In this document: piece by piece, positions 1 to 62,100 of the stretch
How positions within the stretch are numbered: position 1 is the stretch's first letter
Layout: each line of letters begins with the position of its first letter
DNA from: an uncultured Clostridia bacterium
GTDB lineage: Bacteria > Bacillota > Clostridia > Oscillospirales > Ruminococcaceae
DNA length: 64,000 nt
Direction: 5' to 3'
NCBI GenBank assembly: GCA_947624675.1
Contig: CANQLI010000006.1
Location: 62,001-126,000, forward strand
Notes under the pieces: generated by a model
Told to the model about the DNA's origin: nothing
Database searches by the model: none
The model's input: only the letters and a program-made list of their open reading frames with translations
Program-made: the position numbers and the translations under genes

Positions 1-395
1 TTTTCGGGTATTATAACGGTTAGTTCATTTTCTTCAAAGTTAAGGTTGAAAATTCTGTTGTACCATTTTCTCGTATCTCTTTCGTATATCCTCAGACAGT
101 TGTCATTATTTCCTATTTCATACATAAAGCTTTCGTTTTCATAACAGGTTATTTTTATAGCCTCTTGATCGTTGTCTTTAGATTTTATTATTCTGACATC
201 GCTGCCCGAGGTTTCAATCGAAATATCTTCAGCGCCGTTTCGGGAAATAGAGTAATCTGTTTTCTTGAGGTCCTTTTGAGTATTAAACCTAGTTATATCA
301 AAGCCGCTTGTTAAAAATGCTGTAAAACAAATTATAAGTCCTGAAAAGGTTAAAACAACAGCGGCAATAAGCCATTTTTTTGTCGAGCTTTTCAT
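1..395 (-). CDS. DUF4097-like membrane-anchored protein, partial
   Basis: This gene runs off the left edge, so only the first 131 or so codons are visible. The ATG at 395-393 overlaps the TGA of the upstream DUF1700 gene (ATGA overlap), which fixes the start and implies translational coupling. The visible product begins with a positively charged stretch and one membrane segment (about residues 8-30). An extracytoplasmic region follows that contains ETSGSDVRI-like beta-strand text typical of DUF4097 (adhesin-like beta helix) proteins. In Firmicutes such proteins sit downstream of PadR and DUF1700 genes, as here. Function is unknown; a role in envelope or stress sensing is inference. The C-terminal end is not visible. 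Confidence 0.75.
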   Translation of the reverse strand, partial: MKSSTKKWLIAAVVLTFSGLIICFTAFLTSGFDITRFNTQKDLKKTDYSISRNGAEDISIETSGSDVRIIKSKDNDQEAIKITCYENESFMYEIGNNDNCLRIYERDTRKWYNRIFNLNFEENELTVIIPE

Positions 396-45072: not shown

Positions 45073-46095
45073 ATGAATTTTTCTGATGCTTCTGTGCTAA
45101 CGCCAAGGGACATTGAAAAGCAACAACTCAGATTAAGCGCCTCAAAGCTCGGTATTTTGTTGCTGTTATACAACATTCTATTCTTTGTTTATGTTAAAAA
45201 GGCTTTTCTATATGTTTATTATTGGATAGTATCCGGTGAAGTTACTTTTGATGCCGCAAGGATAAACGAATATCTGACAAACAAAGATAATTTTTCATCA
45301 TATACTGCTTTTTCAATGCTGTACTCTTGTTGTGTAGTAGCGGTTGTACTTATTCTCACCGTCATAACTGCGAGACTTATGAGAATAAAGCTTCTGGGAA
45401 TGTTAAGGCTCAATGACAAGAGAGGAATAAAAAGCGCTTTTCTTTCTTTCCCGGTAGTTTTGATTTTGAATAATGTCATAGCGACAATTTGCAATTATAT
45501 CACTGACTTTTTTTCAAAGCACGGTACAGTTATTCCACAAGCTAACTTTTCAATAGACAATCCGACGGTATCGGCTGTGTTATTGGAGATTCTTTATCTC
45601 ATTATAATCGCACCTGTTGCAGAGGAATTTATTTTTCGCGGACTTGTTTTAAAAACAATAGCGCCATACGGAAAAAAGCTCGCTATAATCGTTTCCGCGT
45701 CACTGTTTGGGCTTATGCACGGAAATCTTACGCAGTTTTTAGGTGCATTCGCGTGCGGAATAATATTTGCGGCGGTAGATGTAAAGTACAACTCTATTTT
45801 GCCTTCCATAATAATCCATATGCTTAATAACACATTGCCTATTATGCTTAACATAGGAAATGCGATAGAATCAAAAGCTGTGACCGCAATTTATTTTGTG
45901 CTGTTTTATTCCATTTTACTGGCAGGAGTATTTGTTATAGCAAGACATCTATATTCATTTAAAATTCAGGAGGACAGTCATGAGCTTAGCTATCCCGAGA
46001 GAATAAGGACGGTCGTGTTTAATATTCCGTTGCTTCTGTACACAGCATACCTTATCTATGATATGATATTTGCAATAGTTGCGGCAAACTCATAG
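45073..46095 (+). CDS. CPBP family intramembrane metalloprotease
   Basis: The 340-residue product has about eight membrane segments and the CPBP (Abi) motifs: AEEFIFRGLV (EExxxR), FGLMHGNLTQFL (FxxxH), and HMLNN. Members are Rce1-like glutamate-type proteases involved in bacteriocin self-immunity or protein maturation in Firmicutes; this one's substrate is unknown. GGAGG immediately precedes the ATG, and the gene follows metF by six bases. Confidence 0.9.
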   Translation: MNFSDASVLTPRDIEKQQLRLSASKLGILLLLYNILFFVYVKKAFLYVYYWIVSGEVTFDAARINEYLTNKDNFSSYTAFSMLYSCCVVAVVLILTVITARLMRIKLLGMLRLNDKRGIKSAFLSFPVVLILNNVIATICNYITDFFSKHGTVIPQANFSIDNPTVSAVLLEILYLIIIAPVAEEFIFRGLVLKTIAPYGKKLAIIVSASLFGLMHGNLTQFLGAFACGIIFAAVDVKYNSILPSIIIHMLNNTLPIMLNIGNAIESKAVTAIYFVLFYSILLAGVFVIARHLYSFKIQEDSHELSYPERIRTVVFNIPLLLYTAYLIYDMIFAIVAANS

Positions 46096-46137: not shown

Positions 46138-46171
46138 AGCCGCAGGAGCAGATTTTGCTCCTGCGGCTTTT
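46138..46171 (+). terminator. intrinsic terminator after the CPBP gene
   Basis: AGCCGCAGGAGCA pairs perfectly with TGCTCCTGCGGCT and is followed by TTT. Confidence 0.92.
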
Positions 46172-46278: not shown

Positions 46279-48048
46279 TTAATCATCCTGTAATGCGTCG
46301 TAACCAACTTCGCCGGTCCTTACCTTTACAACCTCTTCGACAGGGTAAACGAATATCTTACCGTCACCGATATGACCTGTGTAAAGAGCCGACTTAGCTG
46401 TGTCGATAACCTTCTGTACAGGTACCTTGCAAACTACTACTTCTACCTTAGACTTAGGAAGAAGATTTCCTTCGATCTCTACTCCACGGTAGTATTCAGG
46501 CTGTCCCTTCTGCATACCCATACCGAGTACATTCGTTACCGTTACACCTGTTACTGAAATTGATTCAAATGCCGAAAGCAGAGTGTTGAGCATCTGGTTC
46601 TTACAGATAACAACGATTTTTGAGATCTTATTGCTGCCCGGAGCAACATAGCTTTCTACCTCTACCGCCTTTTCAACCGGAACCTTCGGCTTTGCGGGAA
46701 TTGAAGGCTCAGGGATAGAAGAGGTGTGATCAACAGTTGTCGCAGTTATCTCAACAGCCGGTGCAAAGTCAGCATAGGATGATGCAAGACCGTGCTCTGT
46801 AACATCGAGACCGATTATCTCTTCCTCTCTGGAAGCACGAAGTCCTACCGTTGCCTTTATCGCAAAGAATACGATTATCATTGTTATAACAGCCCAAGCA
46901 CCTACCGTAAGTACGCCAAGAGCCTGCTTTCCTAATAGCTCAAATCCTCCGCCATAGAAAAGTCCTTTAGTATCAAGGCTGTATCCAGGAGTTGTACCTG
47001 TTGCGAAAAGTCCTACTGCTAAGGTTCCCCAGATTCCGTTCATCATATGAACAGCAACAGCGCCGACCGGGTCGTCAACATGGAAAACATAGTCGAGAAG
47101 CCATACGCCGAATACTACTAACAATCCTGCGACTGCTCCGATTATAAACGAGCCTGTCGCGTCAACTACATCACAGCCTGCCGTCACAGCTACAAGTCCT
47201 GCGAGCGATGCGTTTAAGCACATTGAAACATCAGGCTTACCGTATTTAATCCATGTAAATATCATACAGGTTACTGTTGCTACTGACGGAGCAATAGTAG
47301 TTGTAACAAAAATCGAACCGAGCTGATCTACGCTGGTTGCGGCAGCACCGTTAAATCCATACCAACCGAGCCATAGAATGAACACACCTAAAGCGCCTAT
47401 CGTAAGGTTGTGTCCGGGGAATGCGTGAACCTTTATTTTTCCGTCCTTACCTTTTGTAAACTTTCCGATACGGGGACCTAAAATTGTTGCACCGACTAAA
47501 GCAGCAATTCCGCCTACCATATGGATCGCACAAGAGCCTGCAAAATCGTGGAATCCCAATTCAGCAAGCCAGCCGCCGCCCCAGATCCAGTGAGCTTCGA
47601 TAGGATAGATAAGTCCCGAAATGACTGCTGAATATACACAGTAGGAAAGGAACTTTGTTCTCTCTGCCATAGCTCCTGAAACGATAGTTGCGGTAGTAGC
47701 ACAGAAAACCAGATTGAATACAAAATTTGACCAGTCAAAATCCTTATAGTTTGTAAGGATGTCAAATCCGGGCTTTCCTATAAAGCCTACCAGGTCTTCG
47801 CCAAGTAAAAGGCTGAAGCCGATGATGATGAACATTACCGTACCGATACAGAAGTCCATAAGGTTCTTCATAATAATGTTTCCGGCGTTTTTCGCTCTGG
47901 TGAAACCTGTTTCTACCATAGCGAAGCCTGCCTGCATCCAGAAAACGAGAGCAGCACCGATCAGAAACCATACGCCGAATATTGTACCGTCGATCTGATC
48001 GATGAACTCTGACATACCGTCAAGAACATTTTCTGCAAATAGTGTCAT
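46279..48048 (-). CDS. amt: ammonium transporter fused to a PII signalling domain
   Basis: The 589-residue product has an Amt channel (about 1-430, eleven membrane segments) with the twin histidines in AIHMVGG and AVHMMNG and the cytoplasmic tail motif IGLDVTEHG. A Pro/Val-rich linker (about 440-475) leads to a C-terminal PII domain (about 475-589) with LLPKSKVEVVV, YTGHIGDGKIFVYPVE and the RTGEVG tail. In most bacteria PII (GlnK) is a separate protein that plugs Amt; here it is tethered. No standard T-loop uridylylation tyrosine is evident in the expected context. The gene lies downstream of glnN, behind a leader terminator. Confidence 0.93.
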   Translation of the reverse strand: MTLFAENVLDGMSEFIDQIDGTIFGVWFLIGAALVFWMQAGFAMVETGFTRAKNAGNIIMKNLMDFCIGTVMFIIIGFSLLLGEDLVGFIGKPGFDILTNYKDFDWSNFVFNLVFCATTATIVSGAMAERTKFLSYCVYSAVISGLIYPIEAHWIWGGGWLAELGFHDFAGSCAIHMVGGIAALVGATILGPRIGKFTKGKDGKIKVHAFPGHNLTIGALGVFILWLGWYGFNGAAATSVDQLGSIFVTTTIAPSVATVTCMIFTWIKYGKPDVSMCLNASLAGLVAVTAGCDVVDATGSFIIGAVAGLLVVFGVWLLDYVFHVDDPVGAVAVHMMNGIWGTLAVGLFATGTTPGYSLDTKGLFYGGGFELLGKQALGVLTVGAWAVITMIIVFFAIKATVGLRASREEEIIGLDVTEHGLASSYADFAPAVEITATTVDHTSSIPEPSIPAKPKVPVEKAVEVESYVAPGSNKISKIVVICKNQMLNTLLSAFESISVTGVTVTNVLGMGMQKGQPEYYRGVEIEGNLLPKSKVEVVVCKVPVQKVIDTAKSALYTGHIGDGKIFVYPVEEVVKVRTGEVGYDALQDD

Positions 48049-48063
48049 AAAAATCTCTCCCTT

Positions 48064-48124
48064 TTAAAAAATAAAAGTGCAAACTCCTTTATGGCAATCG
48101 GCTGCCAAAAGGAAATTTGCACTT
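48064..48124 (-). terminator. attenuator terminator in the amt leader
   Basis: On the minus strand AAGTGCAAA (48124-48116) pairs with TTTGCACTT (48083-48075). Inner stems are CCTTT/AAAGG and GGCA/TGCC, and TTATTTTTT follows. Its 5' arm overlaps the hexaloop hairpin 48118-48133. Confidence 0.85.
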
Positions 48125-48133
48125 CTTTGTACA
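48118..48133 (-). promoter_or_regulatory. candidate ANTAR-target hairpin (antiterminator), amt leader
   Basis: On the minus strand UGUAC-AAAGAA-GUGCA: a five-pair stem with one G-U pair and a six-base loop with A at position 1 and G at position 4. It shares bases 48118-48124 with the terminator, so the two folds are mutually exclusive. Confidence 0.6.
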
Positions 48134-48167
48134 TCAGTTATTATGTTTTATCGAATGTGCCTATGAT

Positions 48168-50249
48168 TTAAACATAGAACAGCATTTTTCCGTATGTCGG
48201 ATATGGCCAATACTTTTCGCCGCAGAGCTTTTCAGCCTCATCAGCCGGAGCTCTAAGCTCGCCCATAGCGGTAAATACCTCATCGTGATAGAAGTTTGCC
48301 TTATCCTGAATATCAGTGATTCCCGCTGCATTTGCAGTGATAGTTTCAAGACTTGTAAGCTTTTCGTAGATCTCACTTTCGAGAGCCGAAAGCTTCTTGA
48401 CCACTTCGACTTCAAATTTAGCCTCGGCACCGCATTCTTTAGCAAGCTTCGCAGTCTTTCCAAGCTCCTTTACATATGTCGATATAGCAGGCAGAATATC
48501 CTTTTTAGCCATATCAATCATTGTCAATGCTTCGATGTTAAGTATCTTTACATATTCCTCTAAAAGTATCTCGATCCGTGAGTGTATTTCCGCCTCGGAA
48601 TAAACGCCGTGCTTCGTAAATACTTCTACATTTTTTGGATCAGCAAAGTGCGGTATAGCCTCCGGAGTGGACTTAAGATTTAAAAGTCCTCTCTTTTCTG
48701 CGATTAACGGCCATTCAGAGCTGTAACCGTCACCGTTAAAGATTATGTTCCAGTTTTCGTTGATAGTTTTCTTGATAAGGTCGTGAAGAGTAGCGTTAAA
48801 GTCATCTGCGTCCTTCAATACCTCATAAAACTCATCAAGCGCCTCTGCAACTATCGTATTAAGCACTGTGTTAGGTCCTGCGATAGAGAGCTTCGATCCC
48901 GGCATTCTGAACTCAAACTTATTACCTGTGAAGGCAAATGGAGACGTTCTGTTTCTGTCGGTGTTGTCGATCGGGAAGCTGGGAAGAACATCTACGCCGA
49001 TCTGCATTTCACCCGAACCGTGTCCGGCATATTGCTTGTCGTCCTTGATAGCTTCTAAGATAGCGGTCAGCTCATCGCCTAAGAACATTGAGATGATTGC
49101 CGGAGGAGCTTCGTTAGCACCAAGACGGTGATCGTTTCCGGCCGTTGCAACAGAAAGACGAAGCAGATCCTGATATTCATTAACAGCTTTGATAACCGCA
49201 ACGAGGAAGGTCAGGAACTGTGCGTTTTCGGCGGGAGTTTTTCCCGGCTCAAGGAGGTTTACACCTGTGTCGGTCGAAATAGACCAGTTGTTGTGCTTAC
49301 CTGAACCGTTTACACCTGCAAAAGGCTTTTCGTGAAGAAGGCACTTGAAGCCGTGCTTCTTAGCAACCTTTCTCATAGCCTCCATCATAAGCTGGTTGTG
49401 GTCGGTTGCGATATTGGTAGTCGAGAATATAGGCGCAAGCTCGTGCTGAGCAGGAGCGACCTCGTTGTGCTTTGTTTTAGCCATAATTCCAAGCTTCCAA
49501 AGCTCTTCGTCCAGATCTTTCATATAGGCTGAAATTCTCATCTTTACAGAGCCGAAGTAGTGATCCTCGAGCTCCTGACCCTTTGGAGCAGGTGCGCCGT
49601 AAAGTGTTCTTCCCGTATATATAAGGTCTTTTCTCTTTGCGTAGTCTTCTCTTTCGATAATAAAGTATTCCTGTTCCGCTCCGACAGTTGAAGTAACTCT
49701 CTTAGCATCGCTGCCGAAAAGCTTTAAAATCTTAAGCGCCGATTTATTGACCGCTTCCATCGAACGCAGAAGGGGAGTCTTTTTGTCAAGCGCCTCACCT
49801 GTGTAGGAGCAGAAAGCTGTCGGGATGCAAAGCGATCCGTCCTTAATAAACGCATATGATGTAGGGTCCCACGCCGTGTATCCTCTGGCTTCAAATGTAG
49901 CTCTGAGTCCTCCGGAAGGGAACGAAGATGCGTCAGGCTCTCCCTTAATAAGCTCCTTACCCGAAAACTCCATTATCACCTGTCCGTCTGCTGATGGCGA
50001 TATAAAGCTGTCGTGCTTTTCTGCGGTGATTCCGGTCATCGGCTGGAACCAGTGGGTAAAGTGGGTCGCGCCCTTTTCAATAGCCCAGTCCTTCATAGCA
50101 TTAGCCACCACATTTGCCACATTTGTGTCAAGCGGTGTGCCGTCCTCAATAGTTTTCTTCAAAGCCTTGAATGTTTCTTTCGGAAGCCGTGCCTTCATAA
50201 CCTTTAGGTTGAACACATTTTCTCCGAATAGCTCAGGAATGTTGCTCAT
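48168..50249 (-). CDS. glnN: glutamine synthetase type III
   Basis: The enzyme forms glutamine from glutamate, ammonia and ATP. The product (693 residues from the ATG at 50249) has the GSIII size and motifs: THWFQPMTG near the N-terminus, [48 protein letters not shown] and [23 protein letters not shown] eight bases upstream supports 50249 over the ATG at 50264. GSIII is typical of Ruminococcus and Bacteroidetes. The gene has its own promoter and an attenuator. Confidence 0.95.
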
Positions 50250-50272
50250 TTCCAAGTCCTCCATTCTAAATT

Positions 50273-50317
50273 AAATAAAAAGGCACTGCGAGCATTGATA
50301 TTGCTCACAGCGCCTTT
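50273..50317 (-). terminator. attenuator terminator in the glnN leader
   Basis: On the minus strand AAGGCGCTGTGAGCA pairs with TGCTCGCAGTGCCTT (50316-50280; two mismatches) and is followed by TTTATTT. Its 5' arm overlaps the hexaloop hairpin 50307-50322. Confidence 0.85.
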
Positions 50318-50322
50318 GCTGT
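50307..50322 (-). promoter_or_regulatory. candidate ANTAR-target hairpin (antiterminator), glnN leader
   Basis: On the minus strand ACAGC-AAAGGC-GCTGT is a perfect five-pair stem with a six-base loop, A at position 1 and G at position 4. It shares bases 50307-50316 with the terminator. Confidence 0.65.
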
Positions 50323-50332
50323 TTACATTATT

Positions 50333-50361
50333 AGTATATTCTTGTGTAATTGATTTGTCAA
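50333..50361 (-). promoter_or_regulatory. glnN promoter
   Basis: On the minus strand TTGACA (50361-50356), 17 bases, TATACT (50338-50333). Transcription would begin just before the hexaloop hairpin. Confidence 0.8.
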
Positions 50362-50601
50362 GTCCTTTTTTGTAATTTTATTATATTTGTTAAAAAAGCA
50401 TAACATTAAAAAACTACTGTTTAAAAATTTACTGCAAATCTTACAAATTCACTTTGATTTGGCATAGAAATCGCATAAGATAGCCTGTATTTTTTGCAAT
50501 TTATAATGTTAAATCCTGCAAAAAAATTTAGATGAGTCGTGAGATATAAACGGTTTAAAGCACAAAATGAATTTTTATATCAAATATTATGCAAACAGGG
50601 G

Positions 50602-50630
50602 TTGACAAAAGCATATTAGTATGATAATAT
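50602..50630 (+). promoter_or_regulatory. glutamate synthase operon promoter
   Basis: TTGACA (50602-50607), 17 bases, TAATAT (50625-50630). Confidence 0.75.
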
Positions 50631-50636
50631 ATTTAA

Positions 50637-50822
50637 GGCGCTCGACAGCGCGTTATAACTTGTTGGAACAAAGGCGTTCATAAAAGCTTTTTGCCTCGTC
50701 ATATTATAAAGGTATCAGGTATACTATTTATAATACGCGTGTAAGAGGAAAAGGGCTTTGATGATCGCATTTTTTATTTTTATGTCAGCAGATGAAACAT
50801 AATTTATAAGGAGGAGAGAGTA
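50637..50822 (+). promoter_or_regulatory. structured leader of the glutamate synthase operon
   Basis: Three foldable elements are seen: GCGCT-CGAC-AGCGC at the 5' end (50638-50651), GAAC-AAAGGC-GTTC (50666-50679), whose loop is identical to that in the glnN leader, and ATTATAAA/TTTATAAT (50703-50733) enclosing a smaller GTAT/ATAC stem. A T-run (50770-50783) follows, but no clear terminator stem precedes it. The role as an ANTAR target is inference. Confidence 0.5.
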
Positions 50823-51920
50823 ATGCTTAAAGAGGGACAAGTAAGGATCCCATCGGGCTGCGCTATTTCGGGAATCATCTCAAAAAGCGGAAAAAAGATA
50901 AACGGTGAAAGGATAGTAAAGAGCATTGCGACCATGCACGATCGATCAAACGGTCTTGGGGGAGGCTTTGCGGGATATGGCATTTACCCGCAGTATAAGG
51001 ACCTTTATGCTTTTCATGTTTTTTACGACGGAAACAGCGCAAGAGAGGAATGCGAAAGATTTTTAGACCGCCATTTTGACATAATAAATCTGTCGAAGAT
51101 TCCGGTAAGACCCAGCAGTAAGATAACTGCAGAGCCACTTATATGGAGATATTTTGTCAATCCGCTTCCGACAAAGCTCACCGACAGTCACCTTGATGAA
51201 AAGGAGTTTGTGTCAAGAAGCGTTATAAGGATAAATTCGCAGATAGACGGCGCTTATGTTTTCTCATGTGGAAAAAATATGGGCGTGTTCAAAGCGGTAG
51301 GTTATCCTGAGGATGTCGGAGATTATTTCAGACTTGAGGAATATGACGGATACGCATGGACCGCACACGGAAGATATCCGACAAACACTCCGGGCTGGTG
51401 GGGAGGAGCTCATCCGTTTGCTATGCTTGATTATTCGATAGTTCATAACGGAGAGATCTCAAGCTATGACGCAAACAGAAGAGATATTGAAATGTACGGT
51501 TATAAATGCACCCTTCAGACGGACACTGAGGTAATTACATATATTATTGACTATCTTCTGAGAAAGCAAAAGCTTTCTTTAAAGGATGCTGCAAGCGTTA
51601 TCGCAGCGCCATTCTGGTCGACTATTGAGAATCAGCCTAAGGCGCAGAGAGAAAAGCTCACATATTTGAGAAGCGCTTTTCCGGGACTCCTTATAACAGG
51701 ACCTTTTTCTATAATTCTGGGCTTTGAGGGCGGACTTATGGCACTTAACGATCGACTTAAGCTAAGATCTATGGTCATCGGCGAAAAGGACGATATGGTC
51801 TATATGGCGAGTGAAGAATGTGCTATAAGGATAATTGAGCCTGAGCTTGATAAGCTATGGTCACCTAGGGGCGGAGAGCCTGTGATAGTTACACTGGATT
51901 CAATGAAAAGCAGTAAGTAA
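50823..51920 (+). CDS. glutamate synthase, glutamine amidotransferase domain subunit
   Basis: The 365-residue product is a class II glutamine amidotransferase of the stand-alone glutamate synthase type. The likely catalytic cysteine is in PSGCAISGI (Cys14), exposed after removal of a short propeptide. AHGRYPTNTPGWWGGAHPF and DYSIVHNGEISSYDANRR are family motifs, and RTDTEV-type text appears as LQTDTEVI. It would release ammonia for the FMN subunit encoded next. AGGAGGAG precedes the ATG. The gene opens a five-gene operon encoding a split glutamate synthase. Confidence 0.9.
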   Translation: MLKEGQVRIPSGCAISGIISKSGKKINGERIVKSIATMHDRSNGLGGGFAGYGIYPQYKDLYAFHVFYDGNSAREECERFLDRHFDIINLSKIPVRPSSKITAEPLIWRYFVNPLPTKLTDSHLDEKEFVSRSVIRINSQIDGAYVFSCGKNMGVFKAVGYPEDVGDYFRLEEYDGYAWTAHGRYPTNTPGWWGGAHPFAMLDYSIVHNGEISSYDANRRDIEMYGYKCTLQTDTEVITYIIDYLLRKQKLSLKDAASVIAAPFWSTIENQPKAQREKLTYLRSAFPGLLITGPFSIILGFEGGLMALNDRLKLRSMVIGEKDDMVYMASEECAIRIIEPELDKLWSPRGGEPVIVTLDSMKSSK

Positions 51921-51934
51921 AAGGAGAAAAAATA

Positions 51935-53440
51935 ATGGCTATTGATTTTTTATATCCTGAATATGAGATAAAAAGGGATAGAGATAAATGTATATGCTGC
52001 CGTGTCTGTGAAAGGCAGTGTGCAAACGAAGCTCACTGGTATGATCCGGAGCTTCAGATGATGATGTGCGACAGCGCAAAGTGTGTAAACTGTCACAGGT
52101 GTGTGGCGCTTTGTCCGACAAGAGCGCTTAAAATAGTAAAGACTGATCACACATTTAAAGAGAATGCAAACTGGACAGGTGAGCATATTGCGGAAATTTA
52201 TCGCCAGGCAGGAACTGGCGGAGTTTTACTGTCATCAATGGGAAATCCTAAGAAGTATCCGATCTACTGGGATAAGATGCTAATCAATGCTTCTCAGGTC
52301 ACAAACCCGCCTATTGACCCGCTGAGAGAGCCAATGGAAACAAAGGTGTTTTTGGGTGCAAAGCCGGGAAAGGTCGAGTTTAATTCTAAGGGAGAGATAA
52401 AGAATAATCTCCCTCCTCAGCTTAAGCTTGAAGTACCTATAATGTTTTCTGCTATGAGCTACGGCTCTATAAGCTACAACGCTCACGAATCTCTCGCAAG
52501 AGCGGCAAGAGAGCTAGGAACATTTTACAACACAGGTGAGGGAGGACTTCACGAGGACTTTTATAAGTACGGTGCGAACACGATAGTTCAGGTGGCTTCG
52601 GGAAGATTCGGTGTACATAAGGATTATCTTAATGCAGGAGCTGCTATCGAAATAAAAATGGGACAGGGAGCAAAGCCGGGAATCGGCGGACACCTTCCCG
52701 GAATAAAGGTCCGTGAGGACATTTCAAGAACGAGAATGATCCCGGAGGGCTCTGACGCTATATCGCCCGCGCCGCACCACGATATTTATTCTATTGAGGA
52801 TCTAAGACAGCTCGTTTATTCACTTAAGGAAGCGTCAGACTATAAAAAGCCTGTTATAGTAAAGATCGCTGCCGTGCATAATGTTGCGGCAATAGCTTCA
52901 GGTATTGCAAGAGGCGGAGCGGATATTATCGCAATAGACGGATACCGGGGCGGAACGGGAGCTGCTCCTACAAGAATAAGGGATAATGTGGGTATTCCGA
53001 TAGAGCTCGCTTTAGCTGCTGTTGACCAGCGCTTAAGAGAAGAGGGAATAAGAAACAATGTATCTATCGTTGTCGGAGGTTCTATACGCTCTTCAGCTGA
53101 TGTAGTAAAGGCGATAGCACTTGGCGCGGATGCCGTATATATCGCAACGAGTGCGCTTATGGCACTTGGCTGTCATCTTTGCAGAAGCTGTCAGAAGGGC
53201 AACTGTAACTGGGGAATAGCTACACAACGCCCTGAGCTTGTAAGAAGACTTAATCCCGACATAGGATATAAACGGCTTGTAAACCTTGTTACCGCATGGA
53301 ATCACGAAATCAAGGAGATAATGGGCGGAATGGGTATCAACTCTATCGAGTCGCTAAGAGGAAACCGTTTGATGTTAAGAGGAATAGGACTTACTGAAAA
53401 AGAGCTGTCAATACTCGGCATCAAGCACGCAGGCGAATAG
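51935..53440 (+). CDS. glutamate synthase FMN-binding (central) subunit with ferredoxin domain
   Basis: The 501-residue product has an N-terminal 2x[4Fe-4S] ferredoxin-like domain (CICCRVCERQC and CVNCHRCVALC, residues 17-60), then a Glu_synthase barrel with TGEGGLHEDF, MGQGAKPGIGGHLPG, SPAPHHDIYSIEDL, KIAAVHNVAAIASG and a 3Fe-4S type motif CHLCRSCQKGNC. This is the archaeal-type arrangement in which the barrel, amidotransferase and GXGXG domains are separate proteins. It is the catalytic heart, aminating 2-oxoglutarate to glutamate. It starts 14 bases after the amidotransferase gene. Confidence 0.93.
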   Translation: MAIDFLYPEYEIKRDRDKCICCRVCERQCANEAHWYDPELQMMMCDSAKCVNCHRCVALCPTRALKIVKTDHTFKENANWTGEHIAEIYRQAGTGGVLLSSMGNPKKYPIYWDKMLINASQVTNPPIDPLREPMETKVFLGAKPGKVEFNSKGEIKNNLPPQLKLEVPIMFSAMSYGSISYNAHESLARAARELGTFYNTGEGGLHEDFYKYGANTIVQVASGRFGVHKDYLNAGAAIEIKMGQGAKPGIGGHLPGIKVREDISRTRMIPEGSDAISPAPHHDIYSIEDLRQLVYSLKEASDYKKPVIVKIAAVHNVAAIASGIARGGADIIAIDGYRGGTGAAPTRIRDNVGIPIELALAAVDQRLREEGIRNNVSIVVGGSIRSSADVVKAIALGADAVYIATSALMALGCHLCRSCQKGNCNWGIATQRPELVRRLNPDIGYKRLVNLVTAWNHEIKEIMGGMGINSIESLRGNRLMLRGIGLTEKELSILGIKHAGE

Positions 53441-53459
53441 TTTAAGGAGGACAAGGCTG

Positions 53460-53891
53460 ATGAAGCGTATATATGTTAATGAAAAATGGTGTCTTGGATG
53501 TCACCTTTGTGAATATTACTGTGCATTTGCAAATTCGGGAAAGGACAGTATGGTAAAGGCTCTTAAAAATGTCACTATAAATCCAAGAATAAGAATTGAA
53601 GAGCACGGCGGTATCTCCTTTGCGGTTTCCTGCCGTCACTGTGAGGAGCCTATCTGCACAAAGAGCTGTATAACAGGTGCTTTGACTGTAAATGACGGAG
53701 TTATTCAGATCGACAAGGATAAGTGTGTTGGCTGTTATACCTGTATCCTTACCTGTCCATACGGTGCGATAGTTCCGTCAGATACGGGAGCTATACAAAA
53801 GTGCGAGCTTTGTATCAACAATTCCTCCGGTAAGCCTGCCTGTGTTGCCGGCTGTCCAAACAAGGCTATTGTATTTGAGGAAAAGGAATAG
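53460..53891 (+). CDS. 4Fe-4S ferredoxin-type electron-transfer subunit
   Basis: The 143-residue product has several cysteine clusters: CLGCHLCEYYC, CRHCEEPICTKSC, CVGCYTCILTC and a final CELCINNSSGKPACVAGC. This is the HycB/DmsB-like four-cluster pattern. It probably carries electrons from the NAD(P)H oxidoreductase encoded next to the FMN subunit; the partner is inferred from operon order. GGAGG precedes the ATG. Confidence 0.9.
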   Translation: MKRIYVNEKWCLGCHLCEYYCAFANSGKDSMVKALKNVTINPRIRIEEHGGISFAVSCRHCEEPICTKSCITGALTVNDGVIQIDKDKCVGCYTCILTCPYGAIVPSDTGAIQKCELCINNSSGKPACVAGCPNKAIVFEEKE

Positions 53892-53905
53892 GGGGGCGGA
53901 TGAGT

Positions 53906-55132
53906 ATGTCAAAGTATGTTATTATAGGAAACTCCGCAGCGGCGATAGGCTGTGTAGAGGGAATAAGACAGATCGATAAGAAGGGCGACATAACTCTTAT
54001 AGCGTCTGAGCCCCATCACACCTATTCAAGACCTCTTATTTCATATCTTCTCTATGGAAAGACCGATGAACAGAGAATGAAATACCGCCCGAATGATTTT
54101 TATAAAAAGAATAAGGTAACAAAAAAGCTTGGCGAAACAGTTGTAAGTATAGACAAGAAAAATAAAACCGTCACTCTTAAAAGCGGAGAGGTCATAGGAT
54201 ATGAAAAGCTTATGGTAGCTACTGGGTCTAATCCTTTTATTCCGCCGATGGAGGGACTTGACAGTGTTAAGAATAAGTTTACATTTATGACGCTTGACGA
54301 TGCTAAGGCTCTTGAAAAGGCGATAAGCAAAAACACAAGAGTGCTTATAGTAGGAGCCGGACTTATCGGACTTAAATGCGTTGAGGGAATTCTCGACAGG
54401 GTCGCAAGCGTGGATGTTGTTGATCTTGCAAACAGGGTGTTACCGTCTATACTTGATGAGACAGGCTCGGAGCTTGTTAAGAAATTCCTTGAGAAAAAGG
54501 GAGTAAGGTTTTACTTAAACGACAGCGTTGAGAAATTTGATAAAAATAAGGCTATTTTAAAAAGCGGTAAATCCGTTGGCTATGATGTGGTAGTTATTGC
54601 AGTGGGCGTGCGTCCGAATATTTCTCTGATTAAGGATATTGGCGGAAAGTGTCAAAGAGCAATTATTACAAACAACAAATGTGAGACCTCTATAAAGGAC
54701 ATATACGCAGCAGGCGACTGCACCGAATCAATCGACTGTGCATCCGGCGAGTATAAAGTAATGGCTCTTTTGCCTAATGCCTATATGCAGGGAGAAACTG
54801 CCGGAATAAATATGGCCGGAGGCACAAAGCTTTATGATAACGCGATTTTGATGAACGCGATAGGATTTTTCGGCTATCATATGATAACTGCCGGTGATTA
54901 TGTGGGAGAGACTTATGAATCACTTGATGGAGAAAACTACAAAAAGCTGTTTTATAAGGACAATCGACTTATGGGCTTTATAATGATAGGAGATGTTATG
55001 AGGGCCGGAATTTATACAAGCCTTATAAAAAATAAGACAGACCTTAATACTATCGACTTTGAGCTTATTAAGGAAAAGCCGCAGCTTATGGCTTTTTCAA
55101 AGAAGAAGAGAAGCGAATTTTTAGCAAAGTAA
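53906..55132 (+). CDS. FAD-dependent NAD(P)H oxidoreductase
   Basis: The product (408 residues) has two Rossmann motifs, YVIIGNSAAAIGCVEGI for FAD and VLIVGAGLIGLKCVEGI for NAD(P)H, with VATGSNPFIPPM and IYAAGDCTE. It resembles the NADH-nitrite reductase/rubredoxin reductase group and likely supplies electrons to glutamate synthase. I use the ATG at 53906, nine bases from a GGGGGG site, rather than the one at 53900, only three away. Confidence 0.9.
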   Translation: MSKYVIIGNSAAAIGCVEGIRQIDKKGDITLIASEPHHTYSRPLISYLLYGKTDEQRMKYRPNDFYKKNKVTKKLGETVVSIDKKNKTVTLKSGEVIGYEKLMVATGSNPFIPPMEGLDSVKNKFTFMTLDDAKALEKAISKNTRVLIVGAGLIGLKCVEGILDRVASVDVVDLANRVLPSILDETGSELVKKFLEKKGVRFYLNDSVEKFDKNKAILKSGKSVGYDVVVIAVGVRPNISLIKDIGGKCQRAIITNNKCETSIKDIYAAGDCTESIDCASGEYKVMALLPNAYMQGETAGINMAGGTKLYDNAILMNAIGFFGYHMITAGDYVGETYESLDGENYKKLFYKDNRLMGFIMIGDVMRAGIYTSLIKNKTDLNTIDFELIKEKPQLMAFSKKKRSEFLAK

Positions 55133-55147
55133 GGAGATGGGGAAAAT

Positions 55148-55870
55148 ATGAAGATAACAGCAGGAGAAATGCACTTTCAGTTGCTTAACAAGAAAATAAA
55201 GGCTTGTAAAAAAGAGCCGGTAACTATTGACAACTGTCTTGGTCAAAGATATATCGCAGCAGGCAGAAACGGTACGGATATTATAATAAACGGAACTCCG
55301 GGCAATGCGCTGGGAGCATACCTCGACGGCTGCAACATTACCGTAAACGGGAATGCTCAGGATGCAACGGGAGACACTATGAACGATGGAGTTATCACGA
55401 TTTACGGTTCGTCGGGAGATGCTACGGGATACGCTATGAGGGGCGGAACTATTTATGTTCGTGACAGCGCCGGATACCGTGCCGGAATACATATGAAGAG
55501 CTATATGGACAAAACTCCTGCGCTTATTATTGGCGGAAAGGCAGGAAGCTTTCTTGGCGAGTATCAGGCGGGAGGCTATATTGTGGTCCTGGGACTAGGA
55601 TATGAAGGAGAGAGTATAGTAGGAAATTTCTGCGGAACGGGAATGCACGGCGGAAGGATATATTTAAGAACGGATAAACTTCCTTACGATCTTCCGAAAC
55701 AGGTAAAGGCGGAAAAGGCGACTGCGGAGGATATGGCATTGATAAACAGCTATATCACAGCTTTTTGCAGGAAATTTAAGATCAAAAAGCAGGATGTGTT
55801 AAACTCGGAATTTTATGTTTTGACGCCTGACACAAAAAATCCTTATAAACGACTTTACACAGCGAATTAA
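55148..55870 (+). CDS. glutamate synthase GXGXG-domain subunit
   Basis: The 240-residue product is the right-handed beta-helix (GltB C-terminal, GXGXG) domain as a separate protein. Repeats of the NGTPGNALGAYLDG, NGNAQDATGDTMNDG and YGSSGDATGYAMRGG kind, spaced by about 20 residues, are clear. It acts as a structural support and channels contacts in glutamate synthase. GGAGATGGGG precedes the ATG. A putative promoter and terminator for the following glnA begin at its 3' end. Confidence 0.92.
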   Translation: MKITAGEMHFQLLNKKIKACKKEPVTIDNCLGQRYIAAGRNGTDIIINGTPGNALGAYLDGCNITVNGNAQDATGDTMNDGVITIYGSSGDATGYAMRGGTIYVRDSAGYRAGIHMKSYMDKTPALIIGGKAGSFLGEYQAGGYIVVLGLGYEGESIVGNFCGTGMHGGRIYLRTDKLPYDLPKQVKAEKATAEDMALINSYITAFCRKFKIKKQDVLNSEFYVLTPDTKNPYKRLYTAN

Positions 55871-55882
55871 ATATGGTAAAAT
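55854..55882 (+). promoter_or_regulatory. putative glnA promoter
   Basis: TTTACA (55854-55859), 17 bases, TAAAAT (55877-55882), at the end of the upstream gene. Confidence 0.45.
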
Positions 55883-55906
55883 AATACTAACGATAAATTT
55901 TACCAT
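55873..55906 (+). repeat. inverted repeat in the glnA leader
   Basis: ATGGTAAAAT (55873-55882) pairs perfectly with ATTTTACCAT (55897-55906). It overlaps the putative -10 box and may be an operator or an RNA stem. Confidence 0.5.
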
Positions 55907-55924
55907 CATATGTATCCAAAATAC

Positions 55925-55959
55925 AGGGGATTGGTTTTTAAATCACTCCCCTTATTTTT
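55925..55959 (+). terminator. terminator in the glnA leader
   Basis: AGGGGA pairs with TCCCCT, with inner pairing of TGGTT/AAATCA, and is followed by TATTTTT. It lies between the putative promoter and glnA, so it may act as an attenuator. The hairpin before it (TGTAT-CCAAA-ATACA) does not have the A1/G4 hexaloop. Confidence 0.7.
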
Positions 55960-55977
55960 AAGTGTAGGAGGTTAAGT

Positions 55978-57294
55978 ATGCTTTACACAGAAAAGGATGT
56001 GCTTCAATATGTTGAGGAAAACGATGTTAAATTTGTGAAGCTTCAGTTTTCGGATGTTTTCGGTTTTCAGAGAAATATTTCACTAAACAGCTCTGAACTT
56101 AAAAAAGCGTTTGCCGAGGGCTTTTCGATAGATGTTTCTTATCAGAGATTTCTGTTAAGCCCGAAGGATGATCTTCTTCTGGTCCCTGATGCTTCAACGC
56201 TGTCCATTCTTCCCTGGAGACCTCATCAGGGCGGTGTCGCAAGGCTTATCTGTGACATAAGAAATGTTGACAACACACCGTTTGCTGCCTGCTCAAGGGA
56301 TATTTTAAAAAAAGCCGTGGATTACGCAGCGAAAAAGGGTATCACATTTGAGTTTCAGACTTCCTGTGAGTTTTATTTGTTTAAATGTGACGATGAGGGG
56401 AATCCTACAAAAATTCCGCATGACCATGCGGGGTATATGGATGTAGCTCCGCGTGACAGAGGTGAAAATATACGCAGGGAAATATGTCTTGCACTTGAAC
56501 AGATGGATTTTTCTCCCGATTCTTCACGCCATGAAAGAGGGCCGGGACATAATGAGATAGATTTTCAGTTTTCATCTCCTCTTAAAGCGGCGGATAATTT
56601 TATAACCTTTAAATCAGTTGTAAAAAACATTTCCGACAGAAACGGTCTTTACGCAACTTTTATGCCGAAGCCTTTTGATGATAAACAGGGAAGCGGACTT
56701 CATATAAGTATAAATGTATTTAAAAACCGCAGAAATATATTTAAAAGCTTTGCTCCCGAAAAGGACAGCCTTCAGGCGAGCGTGATAGCGGGTATCATAA
56801 ACAGGATAAAGGATATGACTGTGTTCCTGAACCCGACAGTGAACAGCTATAAACGGTTTGGTATGTTTAAAGTACCTGAATACATTTCATGGAGCACTAA
56901 AAATCTGGCACAGCTTTTGTGTGTTCCCGTTTCGGCGGACGGAAGCGCAAAACTTATTTTGCGTACTCCCGATTGCGCCTGCAACCCGTATATAGCGCTT
57001 GCGCTTATAATCTATGCGTGCGTAGAGGGAATAGAAAACGGCGAGGAATTTGTGGAGGCTGTAAATGAAGACACGGGCTGTCTTGATAAAGAAAGACTTT
57101 CAAAGCTCAGCAGGCTTCCGAAGAATATTGTCGAATCTGCTGAGCTTGCTTCATCAAGTGAGTTTTTGAGCAGGTACATTGATAAAAATGTGATCGACAC
57201 ATATGTGGATATTGCAAAAGAACAGCAGCATAGATACGATGAGGCAACGGATAAGGAGCTTTTTGAAACAGAAAATTATTTTTATAAGCTCTGA
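55978..57294 (+). CDS. glnA: glutamine synthetase type I
   Basis: The 438-residue product has the GSI motifs VKLQFSDVFGFQRN, FYLFK...DHAGYMD, RGPGHNEIDF, FMPKPF, GSGLHISIN, TVNSYKRFG and CACNPYIALA. It has the length of the Bacillus/clostridial alpha-type enzyme, which lacks the adenylylation loop. Together with GSIII it gives the cell two glutamine synthetases in one locus. GGAGG precedes the ATG. Control by the leader terminator is possible. Confidence 0.93.
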   Translation: MLYTEKDVLQYVEENDVKFVKLQFSDVFGFQRNISLNSSELKKAFAEGFSIDVSYQRFLLSPKDDLLLVPDASTLSILPWRPHQGGVARLICDIRNVDNTPFAACSRDILKKAVDYAAKKGITFEFQTSCEFYLFKCDDEGNPTKIPHDHAGYMDVAPRDRGENIRREICLALEQMDFSPDSSRHERGPGHNEIDFQFSSPLKAADNFITFKSVVKNISDRNGLYATFMPKPFDDKQGSGLHISINVFKNRRNIFKSFAPEKDSLQASVIAGIINRIKDMTVFLNPTVNSYKRFGMFKVPEYISWSTKNLAQLLCVPVSADGSAKLILRTPDCACNPYIALALIIYACVEGIENGEEFVEAVNEDTGCLDKERLSKLSRLPKNIVESAELASSSEFLSRYIDKNVIDTYVDIAKEQQHRYDEATDKELFETENYFYKL

Positions 57295-57300
57295 TTTGGT

Positions 57301-57329
57301 TTGACACAGCGGTTTAATATAAATCTAAT
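57301..57329 (+). promoter_or_regulatory. promoter of the ANTAR regulator gene
   Basis: TTGACA (57301-57306), 17 bases, TCTAAT (57324-57329). Confidence 0.6.
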
Positions 57330-57362
57330 ATATTAAATAAGATAATAAGGGGGTGGTGCGAA

Positions 57363-57932
57363 TTGGAGAGCGTTTTGATCGTATCAAACAGCGAAAAGGC
57401 GGCTGATGCTTTGGTGCCTATGTTAAAGGACCTCGGGCATATTAGCGTTGCGATGTCAAAAAGCGGAGCGGAAGCAAAGCGTGCTCTTTCCAAAAATGAA
57501 TATGATCTTGTGATTATCAACGCACCGCTTTCCGATGAATTTGGATTTGATCTTGCCGAGGTTGTAACAAGAGACTATCTGTCAAGCTGTATGGTTATAG
57601 TAAAAGCCGATTATTTTGAGGATGTGAGCGATAAGCTTGAGTCTATTGGTGCGATAAGCGTGCCAAAGCCGGTAAACAGGCTCATACTTTCACAGTCGTT
57701 AAGGTGTATCAGCGCAACAAGAAACAGGCTTTTGGGACTTAAGCAGGAAAATAACAAGCTCCAGAAAAAAATAGAGGAAATGAGAATCATAAACAGAGCA
57801 AAATTTGCGCTTATGCAGTATCTGAGTTACAGTGAGGCACAGGCTCACAGGTATATAGAGAAGCAGGCGATGGATAAAAGGGTAACAAAATATCAGATAG
57901 CGGTACAAATTATCAAGACTTACGAAAATTAA
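57363..57932 (+). CDS. ANTAR-domain RNA-binding response regulator with pseudo-receiver
   Basis: The 189-residue product has an N-terminal receiver-like fold (about 1-110), a coiled coil (about 115-145) and a C-terminal ANTAR domain (about 130-189, ending VTKYQIAVQII-type text), as in AmiR, NasT and EutV. ANTAR proteins bind paired RNA hairpins and prevent transcription termination. The receiver lacks the usual acidic pair and has Asn (IINAPLS) where the phospho-acceptor Asp should be, although the lysine (SVPKPVN) is kept. Signalling is therefore probably by protein contact or ligand. The start is TTG behind AGGGGGTGG. It follows glnA. Confidence 0.88.
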   Translation: MESVLIVSNSEKAADALVPMLKDLGHISVAMSKSGAEAKRALSKNEYDLVIINAPLSDEFGFDLAEVVTRDYLSSCMVIVKADYFEDVSDKLESIGAISVPKPVNRLILSQSLRCISATRNRLLGLKQENNKLQKKIEEMRIINRAKFALMQYLSYSEAQAHRYIEKQAMDKRVTKYQIAVQIIKTYEN

Positions 57933-59142: not shown

Positions 59143-62100
59143 ATGCCTTTAAATAAAGATCTTAAGAGAGTGCTTGTAATAGGCTCGGGACCAATAGTTA
59201 TAGGACAGGCGGCGGAGTTTGACTATGCGGGAACACAGGCCTGCCGCGCACTCAAGGAAGAGGGACTTGAGGTAATACTTGTTAATTCAAACCCGGCAAC
59301 GATTATGACGGATAAGGCTATGGCGGATAAGATCTACATAGAGCCGCTTACGCTTGAAACTGTAAAGAGGATAATAAAAAAAGAGCGTCCGGACAGCCTG
59401 CTGTCAACTCTCGGAGGACAAACCGGACTTACCTTGTCTATGAAGCTTGCAAAAGAGGGCTTTTTGGATGAATATAATGTAAAGCTTCTTGGCGCAAGAC
59501 CTGAAACTATCGACAAGGCGGAGGACCGACAGATGTTTAAGGATACTATGGAGTCTATCGGTCAACCGTGTATTCCTTCTAAGGTCGTGAATACGGTTGA
59601 GGACGCCGTAGCGTTTGCAAATGAAGAGGGTATAGGCTATCCGCTCATAATCCGCCCAGCGTTCACATTAGGAGGAACGGGCGGCGGAATCGTAAACAAT
59701 GAGACAGAACTGAGGGATATTACAAGAAACGGACTTTATCTTTCTCCTATAACGCAGGTGCTTGTTGAAAAGTGTATTGCCGGATGGAAGGAAATAGAGT
59801 TTGAGGTTATGAGAGACAGCAAGGGAAATGTGATAACTGTCTGCTCAATGGAAAACTTTGACCCGGTAGGAGTACATACGGGAGATTCGATTGTTATAGC
59901 GCCTACCGTGACGCTTGCGGACAAGGAGTATCAGATGCTTCGTTCCGCTGCGCTTAAGATAATAGATGCACTTGAAGTAGAGGGAGGCTGTAACTGTCAG
60001 TTTGCACTGAATCCCGACAGCTTTGAATATGCGGTTATCGAGGTCAATCCAAGAGTTTCGCGTTCCTCGGCTCTTGCGTCAAAGGCGACGGGTTATCCGA
60101 TAGCGAAGGTTGCGGCAAAGATAGCTATCGGCTATACGCTTGATGAGATAAAGAACGCGGTAACAGGTAAGACATTCGCCTGCTTTGAGCCGGCGCTTGA
60201 CTATGTTGTAGTAAAGCTTCCTAAGTGGCCTTTTGACAAGTTTGTTTATGCAAAAAGAACTCTCGGCACTCAGATGAAAGCTACGGGAGAGGTAATGGCC
60301 ATAGGTACTACCTTTGAGCAGGCTATTATGAAGGCGGTAAGAGGTGCAGAAATAGGACACGACAGCCTGTTAAGCGAGCCGCTTATGGCACTTTCTGATG
60401 ACGAGGTCAAGGAAAGACTAAAAAGCTGTAACGATGAAAGACTGTTTGTAGTTTTTGAAAATCTTAGAAGAGGAATTTCGCCTGAGTACATACATAATAT
60501 AACAAAGATCGACCCTTGGTTTTTAAACAAGCTTTTAAAGATAATAGATGTCGAAAAAGAGCTTCGCAAGGGAGTCTTGACAGATGAGCTTTATATCAAG
60601 GCGAAGAAGATAGGTTATCTTGACAAAGTCATAAAACAGCTTTCTGGCTGTGAGATAGAAAAGCCGAAAAATGCGTCGTTTAAAATGGTAGATACTTGCG
60701 CTGCGGAGTTTTCTGCACAAACGCCTTATTTCTACTCTACCTTTGACGATGAGGACGAGGCTGGTAAGCACATAAAAGCGTTAGGCTCTAAAAATAAAAC
60801 AGTAATAGTTTTCGGATCGGGACCTATAAGGATCGGACAGGGAATCGAGTTTGACTATGCTTCTGTTCAGTGCGTCTGGGCATTAAAGCGTCAAGGCTTT
60901 GATGTTGTTATTGTGAACAACAACCCTGAAACGGTGTCAACTGACTTTGATACAGCAGACAGACTTTACTTCGAGCCGCTTACAAACGAAGATGTTATGA
61001 ACATCATAAATGTCGAAAAGCCTTACGGAGTGGTTGTAGCGTTCGGCGGACAGACGGCTATAAAGCTTACAAAGTATATGGCTGCAAACGGTGTGAACAT
61101 TTTGGGAACTCCGCCTGACAGTATAGATGCCGCTGAGGACAGAGAGCGTTTTGATGAGCTTTTGGAGCTTCACGGTATAAAGCGTCCACAGGGCTTTACG
61201 GTTATGACTACCGAAGAGGCTCTTGAGGTCGCAAATAAGCTGCATTACCCTGTTTTGATGCGTCCGTCTTATGTTTTGGGCGGTCAGAATATGATAATCG
61301 CATTCAACGATGACGATATAAAGGAATATATGGCTATAATCCTTGCACAGGAGATAGAGAATCCGATACTGATCGACAAGTACCTTTCAGGTCCTGAGCT
61401 TGAGGTGGACGCGATATGTGACGGAGAGGATATACTTATTCCCGGAATTATGGAACACGTTGAGAGAGCGGGAATACATTCAGGTGACTCGATAGCAGTT
61501 TATCCTGCTTGGAATCTTCCTGACGAGATGGTAGAAAGGATAGTTGAGTGTTCCAAGAACCTTGCTGTATCATTGAAAACAAAGGGACTTGTAAATATAC
61601 AGTATCTCATTTATCACGGAGAGCTATATGTAATAGAGGTAAATCCGCGTTCATCGAGAACTATCCCTTATATCTCAAAGGTAACGGGTGTTCCTATGGT
61701 AGAGCTTGCAACACGCGCAATGCTCGGAGAAAAGCTCAAATCAATGGGCTACGGAACGGGTCTTTATCCTCATTCTCCGTATATGGCGGTAAAGGTTCCT
61801 GTATTCTCGTTTGAAAAGCTTATTGATGTAGACAACCACTTAGGTCCGGAGATGAAGTCCACAGGAGAGGTACTGGCTTTGGCAAATACTCTTGAAGAGG
61901 CGCTTTACAAGGGACTTATAGCGGCGGGCTACACTCTTGAGAAAAAAGGCGGAGTATTTATAACCGTAAGAGATTCAGATAAGCCGGAGATTTCAGAGGT
62001 AGCTAAAAAATTTGCAGATCTCGGATTTAAGATATATGCTACAAGAGGAACGGCAAAGACGCTTGAGGAAAACGGTATCACCGCACAGGTAGTCGATAAG

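Follow-up and report, generated by a model that had tools for sequence, protein, structure and literature searches.

A nitrogen-assimilation locus of an uncultured Clostridia bacterium of the Ruminococcaceae carries three leaders in which a single hairpin with a six-base loop overlaps an intrinsic terminator, together with a nitR-like gene whose product has an ANTAR RNA-binding domain. The locus lies in the window, the whole 64,000-nucleotide (nt) stretch of DNA analysed here (assembly GCA_947624675.1, contig CANQLI010000006.1, positions 62,001 to 126,000), and the leaders precede an ammonium transporter gene (amt), the type III glutamine synthetase gene glnN and a five-gene glutamate synthase operon. 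In each leader the loop has A at position 1 and G at position 4 (A1/G4 hexaloop). Judging from sequence comparison, we consider it probable (about 0.8) that these ammonia-assimilation genes are controlled by ANTAR antitermination through one hexaloop hairpin at the 5' end of the transcript, without phosphorylation of the regulator.

Anatomy of the leaders

The elements of the three leaders are the following, with folding z-scores (z) where these were computed.

50333..50361, minus strand: glnN promoter, TTGACA-17-TATACT, 11/12 consensus bases, kept in all 15 genus genomes, that of the window among them
50307..50322, minus strand: glnN single hexaloop hairpin, ACAGC(AAAGGC)GCTGT, starting 10 nt past the -10 box, kept in 15/15 genus genomes
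50273..50317, minus strand: glnN intrinsic terminator, 5' arm overlapping the hairpin, -27 kcal/mol, z -6.5
48118..48133, minus strand: amt hexaloop hairpin, TGTAC(AAAGAA)GTGCA, A1/G4 loop in 13/13 readable genus leaders
48066..48126, minus strand: amt intrinsic terminator, 5' arm overlapping the hairpin, between the glnN stop and the amt start, -27.9 kcal/mol, z -6.5
50602..50630, plus strand: glutamate synthase operon promoter, TTGACA-17-TAATAT, from sequence
50638..50651, plus strand: hairpin GCGCTCGACAGCGC close to the 5' end of the transcript, loop not of the A1/G4 hexaloop type, from sequence and folding
50666..50679, plus strand: glutamate synthase hexaloop hairpin, GAAC(AAAGGC)GTTC, from sequence
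50674..50781, plus strand: glutamate synthase terminator, long stem GCGTTCAT...ATGATCGC then ATTTTTTATTTTT, from folding and relatives

The glnN terminator has 16 pairs, with a 5' arm built from the loop and 3' arm of the hexaloop hairpin, which alone folds with z -2.9; read by eye, promoter, hairpin and terminator are all present in the glnN leaders of the 15 genus genomes. The amt hairpin alone has z -1.05, and the loops of the 13 readable genus leaders are AAAGAA, AATGAA or AAAGAG on stems that differ (by eye). No strong promoter was found in the 119 nt that separate glnN from amt in the window. A reading of the window made from its letters alone (the sequence-only reading) had described a strong terminator overlapping a hexaloop in both leaders, AAAGGC in glnN and AAAGAA in amt, and both descriptions agree with the fold scores and with conservation in the genus. 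The terminators of the amt leaders L083, L086, L091, L098, L099, L100, L263, L265 and L267 are capped by an A1/G4 hexaloop of their own, for example GAAAATGC(AAAGAA)GCATTTTT.

The same reading had placed the hairpin GAAC-AAAGGC-GTTC in the glutamate synthase leader, where it stands with its loop kept in the genus, and had seen no clear terminator there, which needs correction. The segment GCGTTCAT (from 50674) pairs with ATGATCGC (50761-50768) with one T-T mismatch, and ATTTTTTATTTTT comes next; the 3' arm of the hexaloop hairpin is paired with a segment 80 nt downstream, ahead of a T tract. Folding of 50672-50789 gives -32 kcal/mol (z -3.7), the longer segment 50640-50789 gives z -2.1, and relatives restore the terminator pair (GCGTTCA/TGAACGC in L003, GCGTTCA/TGAGCGC in L004, by eye). 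The hexaloop starts 35 nt past the -10 box and, folded with the hairpin upstream of it, has z -0.5. All 13 genus glutamate synthase leaders that adjoin glnN have the loop AAAGGC, AATGGT or AAAGGT on stems GAAC/GTTC or GGAC/GTTC (by eye); in the remaining two genus genomes glnA occupies that place beside glnN, without such a hairpin. Because the amt and glutamate synthase hairpins have weak fold scores of their own, the case for them is carried by conservation. Hairpin and terminator are mutually exclusive in all three window leaders. We note that the hairpin between the start and the hexaloop of the window's glutamate synthase leader is a GC-rich tetraloop, and that the glutamate synthase leaders of L007-L016 carry a conserved GGTTAATATTCGG-like stretch instead.

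Distribution of the element and covariation of its stem

The family-wide scan covered 204 leaders (144 glnN, 30 amt and 30 gltS), 176 of them from genomes with an ANTAR match (109/148 genomes) and 28 from others. The glnN sample comes from 132/136 genomes and leaves out 24 listed places (23 further copies and one truncated copy in genome G062), places outside that listing, and loci L248 and L250, where the glnN start is missing; the amt and gltS leaders are only the 30 best matches each, of 61 and 55 genomes. A match was a hexaloop hairpin of at least 4 pairs with a G-C or C-G closing pair and free loop letters, in which the loop or the 3' arm shares positions with the 5' arm of a T-tract terminator. 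Such a hairpin was found in 137/176 leaders of ANTAR-bearing genomes, and 119 of these, from 83 genomes, have an A1/G4 loop, against 5/28 leaders in the other genomes. Hairpins and A1/G4 loops numbered 85 and 73 of 117 for glnN, 27 and 25 of 29 for amt, and 25 and 21 of 30 for gltS in ANTAR-bearing genomes, and 6 and 4 of 27 for glnN and 1 and 1 of 1 for amt in genomes without an ANTAR match. The four glnN A1/G4 matches in the latter stay in the counts, although L195 and L244 look like chance matches in coding sequence. Ten dinucleotide shuffles per leader gave a mean of 22.6 hairpins and 0.9 A1/G4 hairpins over all 204 leaders, and other loop sizes gave 45 (4 nt), 27 (5 nt), 34 (7 nt) and 65 (8 nt) matches in the same scan, compared with the 137 hexaloops. 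Every one of the 119 A1/G4 leaders has the loop AANG, with position 3 free, and a C-G closing pair.

Covariation was assessed in the 120/176 leaders that could be anchored by a strong promoter and AANGR 5-45 nt past the -10 box, with pairing not presupposed; of the 56 others, 42 have no strong promoter and 14 no loop motif. Stem positions 1-5 are paired in 98, 96, 97, 99 and 76 of the 120 leaders, each above the maximum of 500 reshufflings of the partners (means 85.5, 68.1, 79.2, 52.4 and 49.3), and position 6 in 34, compared with 40.9 on reshuffling. Pairs change identity, as at position 4 (C-G 52, A-T 21, G-C 16). A 5-bp stem therefore covaries while the loop stays constant. This is the outcome that the sequence-only reading had named beforehand as a check on its proposal, with loop bases A1 and G4 kept while the stem drifts.

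A single hairpin close to the predicted transcript start

A strong promoter (at least 10/12 consensus bases within 75 nt upstream) precedes 94/119 A1/G4 leaders, and the hairpin starts no more than 16 nt from the -10 box in 74 of them and no more than 25 nt in 84 (median distances 11 nt for glnN, 12.5 for amt and 9 for gltS). Transcription generally starts about 7 nt past the -10 box, which would leave only a few nucleotides before the hairpin. An upstream A1/G4 hairpin occupies this interval in 1/94 strong-promoter leaders (L087, amt), and none of the 25 leaders without a strong promoter has a first A1/G4 hairpin within 45 nt upstream. Two hairpins joined by a short linker occur in 0/3 window leaders. 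The test for an upstream first hairpin (P1) is validated by L087 and the amt tip loops only, since its dual-hairpin positive control, which included no published dual leader, failed: five 20-kb ANTAR regions, among them the eut-like locus of G104 (L361; eut by eye), yielded no tandem element. The sequence-only reading had remarked that one hairpin of the usual pair is evident in each leader, and by these counts, with those for the downstream side below, the second is truly absent.

One alternative is dual-hexaloop control with a first hairpin that lies further upstream, the true start also being further upstream, or that has a degenerate loop. The 35-nt interval of the window's glutamate synthase leader, with a non-hexaloop hairpin between start and hexaloop, would suit it, as would the clear upstream A1/G4 hairpin of L087. 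We nevertheless hold it unlikely, since the promoter lies within 16 nt of the hairpin in 74/94 leaders, whereas mononucleotide shuffling of the 75 nt upstream creates such a promoter there in 0.8% of cases, and since the 25 leaders without a strong promoter also lack a first hairpin within 45 nt.

Dual control might also run the other way, with the conserved hairpin acting as P1 and a second A1/G4 hexaloop inside the terminator. A downstream hexaloop is present in 8/119 leaders compared with 1.4 expected from shuffles, six of them among the 25 amt leaders, where these six sit at the terminator tip, and in 3/59 elements of named genomes. It is absent from 111/119 leaders, including all three in the window, which makes this arrangement improbable.

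Genes preceded by the element and association with ANTAR genes

A blind pattern search of 148 genomes (TTGACA-16..18-TATANT-5..14-RCAANGRNGY) returned 169 matches in 93 genomes, whereas the reversed pattern returned none and patterns with loop G4 changed to C or A1 changed to T returned 7 and 5. ANTAR-bearing genomes hold 162/169 of the sites; by genome, matches occur in 86/109 with and 7/39 without an ANTAR match (Fisher p about 2e-11, relatedness ignored). At glnN, the scan found the hairpin in 71/106 genomes with an ANTAR gene and 4/26 without, relatedness again ignored. These associations favour the proposal of the sequence-only reading that the local ANTAR protein controls the genes, and the window's protein is the only candidate seen, because a single ANTAR match was found in the whole window genome (G000; 2.08 Mb, 49 contigs).

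Of 37 blind matches read in 30 loci, 32 have an overlapping terminator, and these precede glnN, gltS, amt or glnA (19), asnA (2), pyrG (4), purA (4) or other genes (3). Genes asnA, pyrG and purA were assigned by Pfam (L393 asnA and purA by eye). The five matches without a terminator (L380, L384, L389, L390 and L396) were judged chance or weak, L389 preceding asnA, as were L371, L372 and L375, which have a terminator but other genes downstream. In G006, a near-identical site of promoter plus AAAGGA occurs seven times (for example L351), some copies at contig ends and all counted within the 169; the seven resemble copies of a single repeat, of the kind that mobile elements carry.

In 41 of the 80 named loci that surround NitR relatives, an element precedes a glutamine synthetase (GS), glutamate synthase (GOGAT) or amt gene, and 37 of these 41 have a strong promoter within 16 nt. 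These loci hold 110 elements, 47 of them without a window-type gene downstream; of the 47, only the seven with a strong promoter were read further. Five of these stand before asnA, one before a large glutamate synthase gene and one before a gene for a Glu/Leu/Phe/Val dehydrogenase that is probably glutamate dehydrogenase. Among the hosts are Clostridium cuniculi, the cultured C. methylpentosum (L277) and Papillibacter cinnamivorans (L296), Sedimentibacter saalensis, Herbinix and Fusibacter; the genera Clostridium, Sedimentibacter, Herbinix, Papillibacter and Fusibacter do not form one family.

A further alternative takes the hexaloop-terminator as a nitrogen attenuator read by another factor, with nitR merely its neighbour. 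Linkage and relatedness could yield the association with ANTAR genes, and G049, G044 and G066 keep good-looking elements although no ANTAR gene was found in them, also with a NitR profile (genome completeness 98% for G049 and G044, 66% for G066). In G049, one glnN leader (L054) has a ruined loop, AAAACAGTTTCGGCGCTGT, and amt and a second glnN (L140 and L079, also G049 loci) keep theirs, so that the ANTAR gene may have been lost recently. An independent factor would have to read the published ANTAR recognition code, the A1/G4 hexaloop (PMC3369931, PMC8934654), at sites that are concentrated in ANTAR-bearing genomes, those before pyrG and purA included, although one of the four purA sites lies in G044. 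We give this alternative little credence.

The NitR-like protein

The window protein has 189 aa and matches the Pfam families ANTAR (55 bits, cut-off 27.3) and Response_reg (30.7 bits). Its AlphaFold model has a mean pLDDT of 95, and the best PDB match by Foldseek is RNA-bound EutV (6ww6_B, TM 0.82). The phospho-acceptor position of the receiver is Asn in the window protein (N53) and in 23/30 aligned family members, and Asp in 1/30; the acidic-pocket positions are acidic in 0/30 and 2/30, and the conserved lysine is kept in 26/30. This loss of the phosphorylation site points to NitR being switched without phosphorylation. Among 11 window proteins run through Pfam there is no histidine kinase, the rest of the genome not having been checked. 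Control by a histidine kinase through the receiver domain, like that of EutV, would find support in the recognisable receiver fold and the retained lysine but is very hard to maintain for a family in which the acceptor aspartate and the acidic pocket are almost entirely gone.

In the ANTAR domain, residues equivalent to EutV K149, E160 and M172 are identical in 30/30 members, the Y164 position is His in 30/30 and the R142 position is never Arg (0/30). AmiR (PDB 1qo0) likewise has His at the EutV Tyr164 position. It is an ANTAR regulator that is not of the phosphorylated type. The EutV contact residues are those described in PMC8934654, and an offset of 2 between the numbering of that paper and of the chain was inferred.

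Among the 30 best-scoring ANTAR loci, nitR adjoins glnA (a glnA-like gene) in 22 and gltC in 5, and one, L017, encodes an ordinary EutV-like protein. NitR of Clostridium saccharobutylicum reportedly has a glnA neighbourhood. The C. cuniculi relative (L288) is 46% identical to the window's NitR-like protein, and the closest named relative by NitR identity is L251 (85%), from the uncultured Clostridia genome Lapin-011, whose name probably indicates a rabbit source.

Proposed mechanism and comparison with known ANTAR systems

In the mechanism that we favour, the terminator stem would absorb the hairpin's loop and 3' arm when no active NitR is present, and RNA polymerase would stop in the leader. 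NitR, if bound, would hold the hairpin and block the terminator, and glnN, amt and the glutamate synthase operon would be transcribed, presumably on nitrogen limitation. No first, recruiting hairpin would be used: the hairpin would leave RNA polymerase first, and the polymerase would have 30-46 nt left to transcribe before completing the terminator (medians of 30, 34 and 46 nt after the hairpin), a delay that would give NitR time to bind and would replace the recruiting step. The signal would most likely reach NitR by protein contact, a protein partner being suggested by the loss of the phosphorylation site together with the adjoining glnA. Glutamine synthetase is the leading candidate, by analogy with its binding of TnrA in Bacillus (PMC6316151), as a first guess that is possible but doubtful.

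Much of this has precedent. ANTAR control of nitrogen genes is already known, as is the Clostridium NitR: in C. saccharobutylicum it is an ANTAR protein which reportedly induces the genes of the GS/GOGAT cycle on nitrogen limitation (PMC6316151, citing Stutz 2007). For the ANTAR gene of the C. thermocellum GS-GOGAT cluster, which also has an Amt-PII fusion, the authors of PMC4676874 suggest a role as ammonia-sensitive antiterminator on the basis of expression, and the passage concerned describes no RNA element. A catalogue of ANTAR targets built on a two-hairpin model lists matches ahead of genes for ammonium transporters, PII, glutamate synthases and glutamine synthases (PMC3369931), and an actinobacterial ANTAR survey also requires two stem-loops with a linker (PMC8164766). 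EutV of Enterococcus faecalis and its eut leaders share the ANTAR domain, the A1/G4 hexaloop and the exclusivity of hairpin and terminator (PMC3369931, PMC8934654), but EutV is phosphorylated and its leaders have two hairpins, whereas the NitR-like protein described here lacks the phosphorylation site and its putative target leaders have one hairpin, 5'-terminal. EutV binds one hexaloop at 3-6 uM. According to PMC8934654, the crystal structure has an ANTAR dimer engaging one hexaloop, EutV affinity does not differ significantly between one and two hexaloops, and a recruit-then-shift model is proposed; its authors hold that termination is prevented only if both hexaloops of a pair are contacted, and they leave open the natural role of single hexaloops. 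Searches of an open-access library, none aimed at ANTAR control of pyrG, purA or asnA, listed no account of clostridial ANTAR leaders with a single hexaloop; within that limit, what appears to be new is the lone hairpin at the 5' terminus, how widely it occurs, and its asnA, pyrG and purA targets.

Several observations weigh against single-hairpin antitermination by NitR. By the scan, 57/176 leaders of ANTAR-bearing genomes, including 44/117 glnN leaders, lack the A1/G4 element, and 35/106 ANTAR-bearing genomes have no element at any fetched glnN copy; for only 7 of the 44 element-less glnN leaders does another fetched glnN copy of the same genome carry the element. The association with ANTAR genes was computed ignoring relatedness, transcription starts were inferred from promoter sequence, and the loop motif is not rare in itself, with AANGR past the -10 box in 120 leaders and the permuted AGNAR in 83. 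The downstream hexaloops of amt leaders and the elements kept in G049, G044 and G066 belong here too. From experiment, deletion of P1 ablated EutV induction (PMC3369931), and NasR of Klebsiella, which is likewise of the non-phosphorylated type, binds one hairpin more weakly (about 12 uM) than two and needs both for full affinity, unlike the single hairpin proposed here (PMC7496416).

A broader generalization, that across Clostridia one 5'-terminal hexaloop is the whole signal of a phosphorylation-independent, glutamine-synthetase-coupled ANTAR regulator governing glnN, glnA, gltS, gltB, amt and gdh as well as asnA, pyrG and purA, has in our judgement an even chance of being correct. If it is true, the rule that an ANTAR dimer has to visit two hairpins in order to stop termination would fall, and through asnA, pyrG and purA control would extend to amide and nucleotide nitrogen use. 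The 74 leaders with too little space for a first hairpin, and the similar layout at 169 sites, would then offer a natural answer to the role of single hexaloops, a regulon that two-hairpin surveys are expected to miss. The glnN leader would represent a minimal protein-switched terminator of roughly 55 nt.

Gene content of the locus and further features of the window

Pfam assigns the genes of the locus as follows, in agreement with the positions and functions given by the sequence-only reading; amt-PII and glnN lie on the minus strand and the others on the plus strand.

46279..48048, minus strand: amt-PII fusion, ammonium transporter with a C-terminal PII domain
48168..50264, minus strand: glnN, type III glutamine synthetase (GSIII)
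50823..51920, plus strand: glutamate synthase amidotransferase subunit
51935..53440, plus strand: glutamate synthase catalytic subunit
53460..53891, plus strand: 4Fe-4S ferredoxin-like subunit
53900..55132, plus strand: pyridine nucleotide-disulphide oxidoreductase subunit
55148..55870, plus strand: GXGXG glutamate synthase subunit
55978..57294, plus strand: glnA, type I glutamine synthetase, immediately 5' of nitR
57363..57932, plus strand: nitR-like gene, degenerate receiver and ANTAR RNA-binding domain, TTG start (Pfam and structure model)

No A1/G4 hexaloop was seen by eye in the window's own glnA leader. This leader has a terminator-like stem, GGGGATTGG...CACTCCCC-TTATTTTT (55926-55959), also present in L251 and preceded by a different, non-A1/G4 stem; it is perhaps another attenuator. 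Rfam gave no match in the window at gathering level. Twelve weak matches (E up to 10, 46-60 kb) were recorded, and those on the leaders were judged chance, including the best, plant MIR399 on the amt hairpin (E 0.0013). With Amt and PII in one fused protein, PII could hardly leave the membrane. A strong 14-pair terminator hairpin (46138-46168) stands between the frame ending at 46095 and the end of amt at 46279. A frame of 1349 aa (59143-63192) encodes a CarB-DapF fusion of carbamoyl-phosphate synthase large chain and diaminopimelate epimerase.

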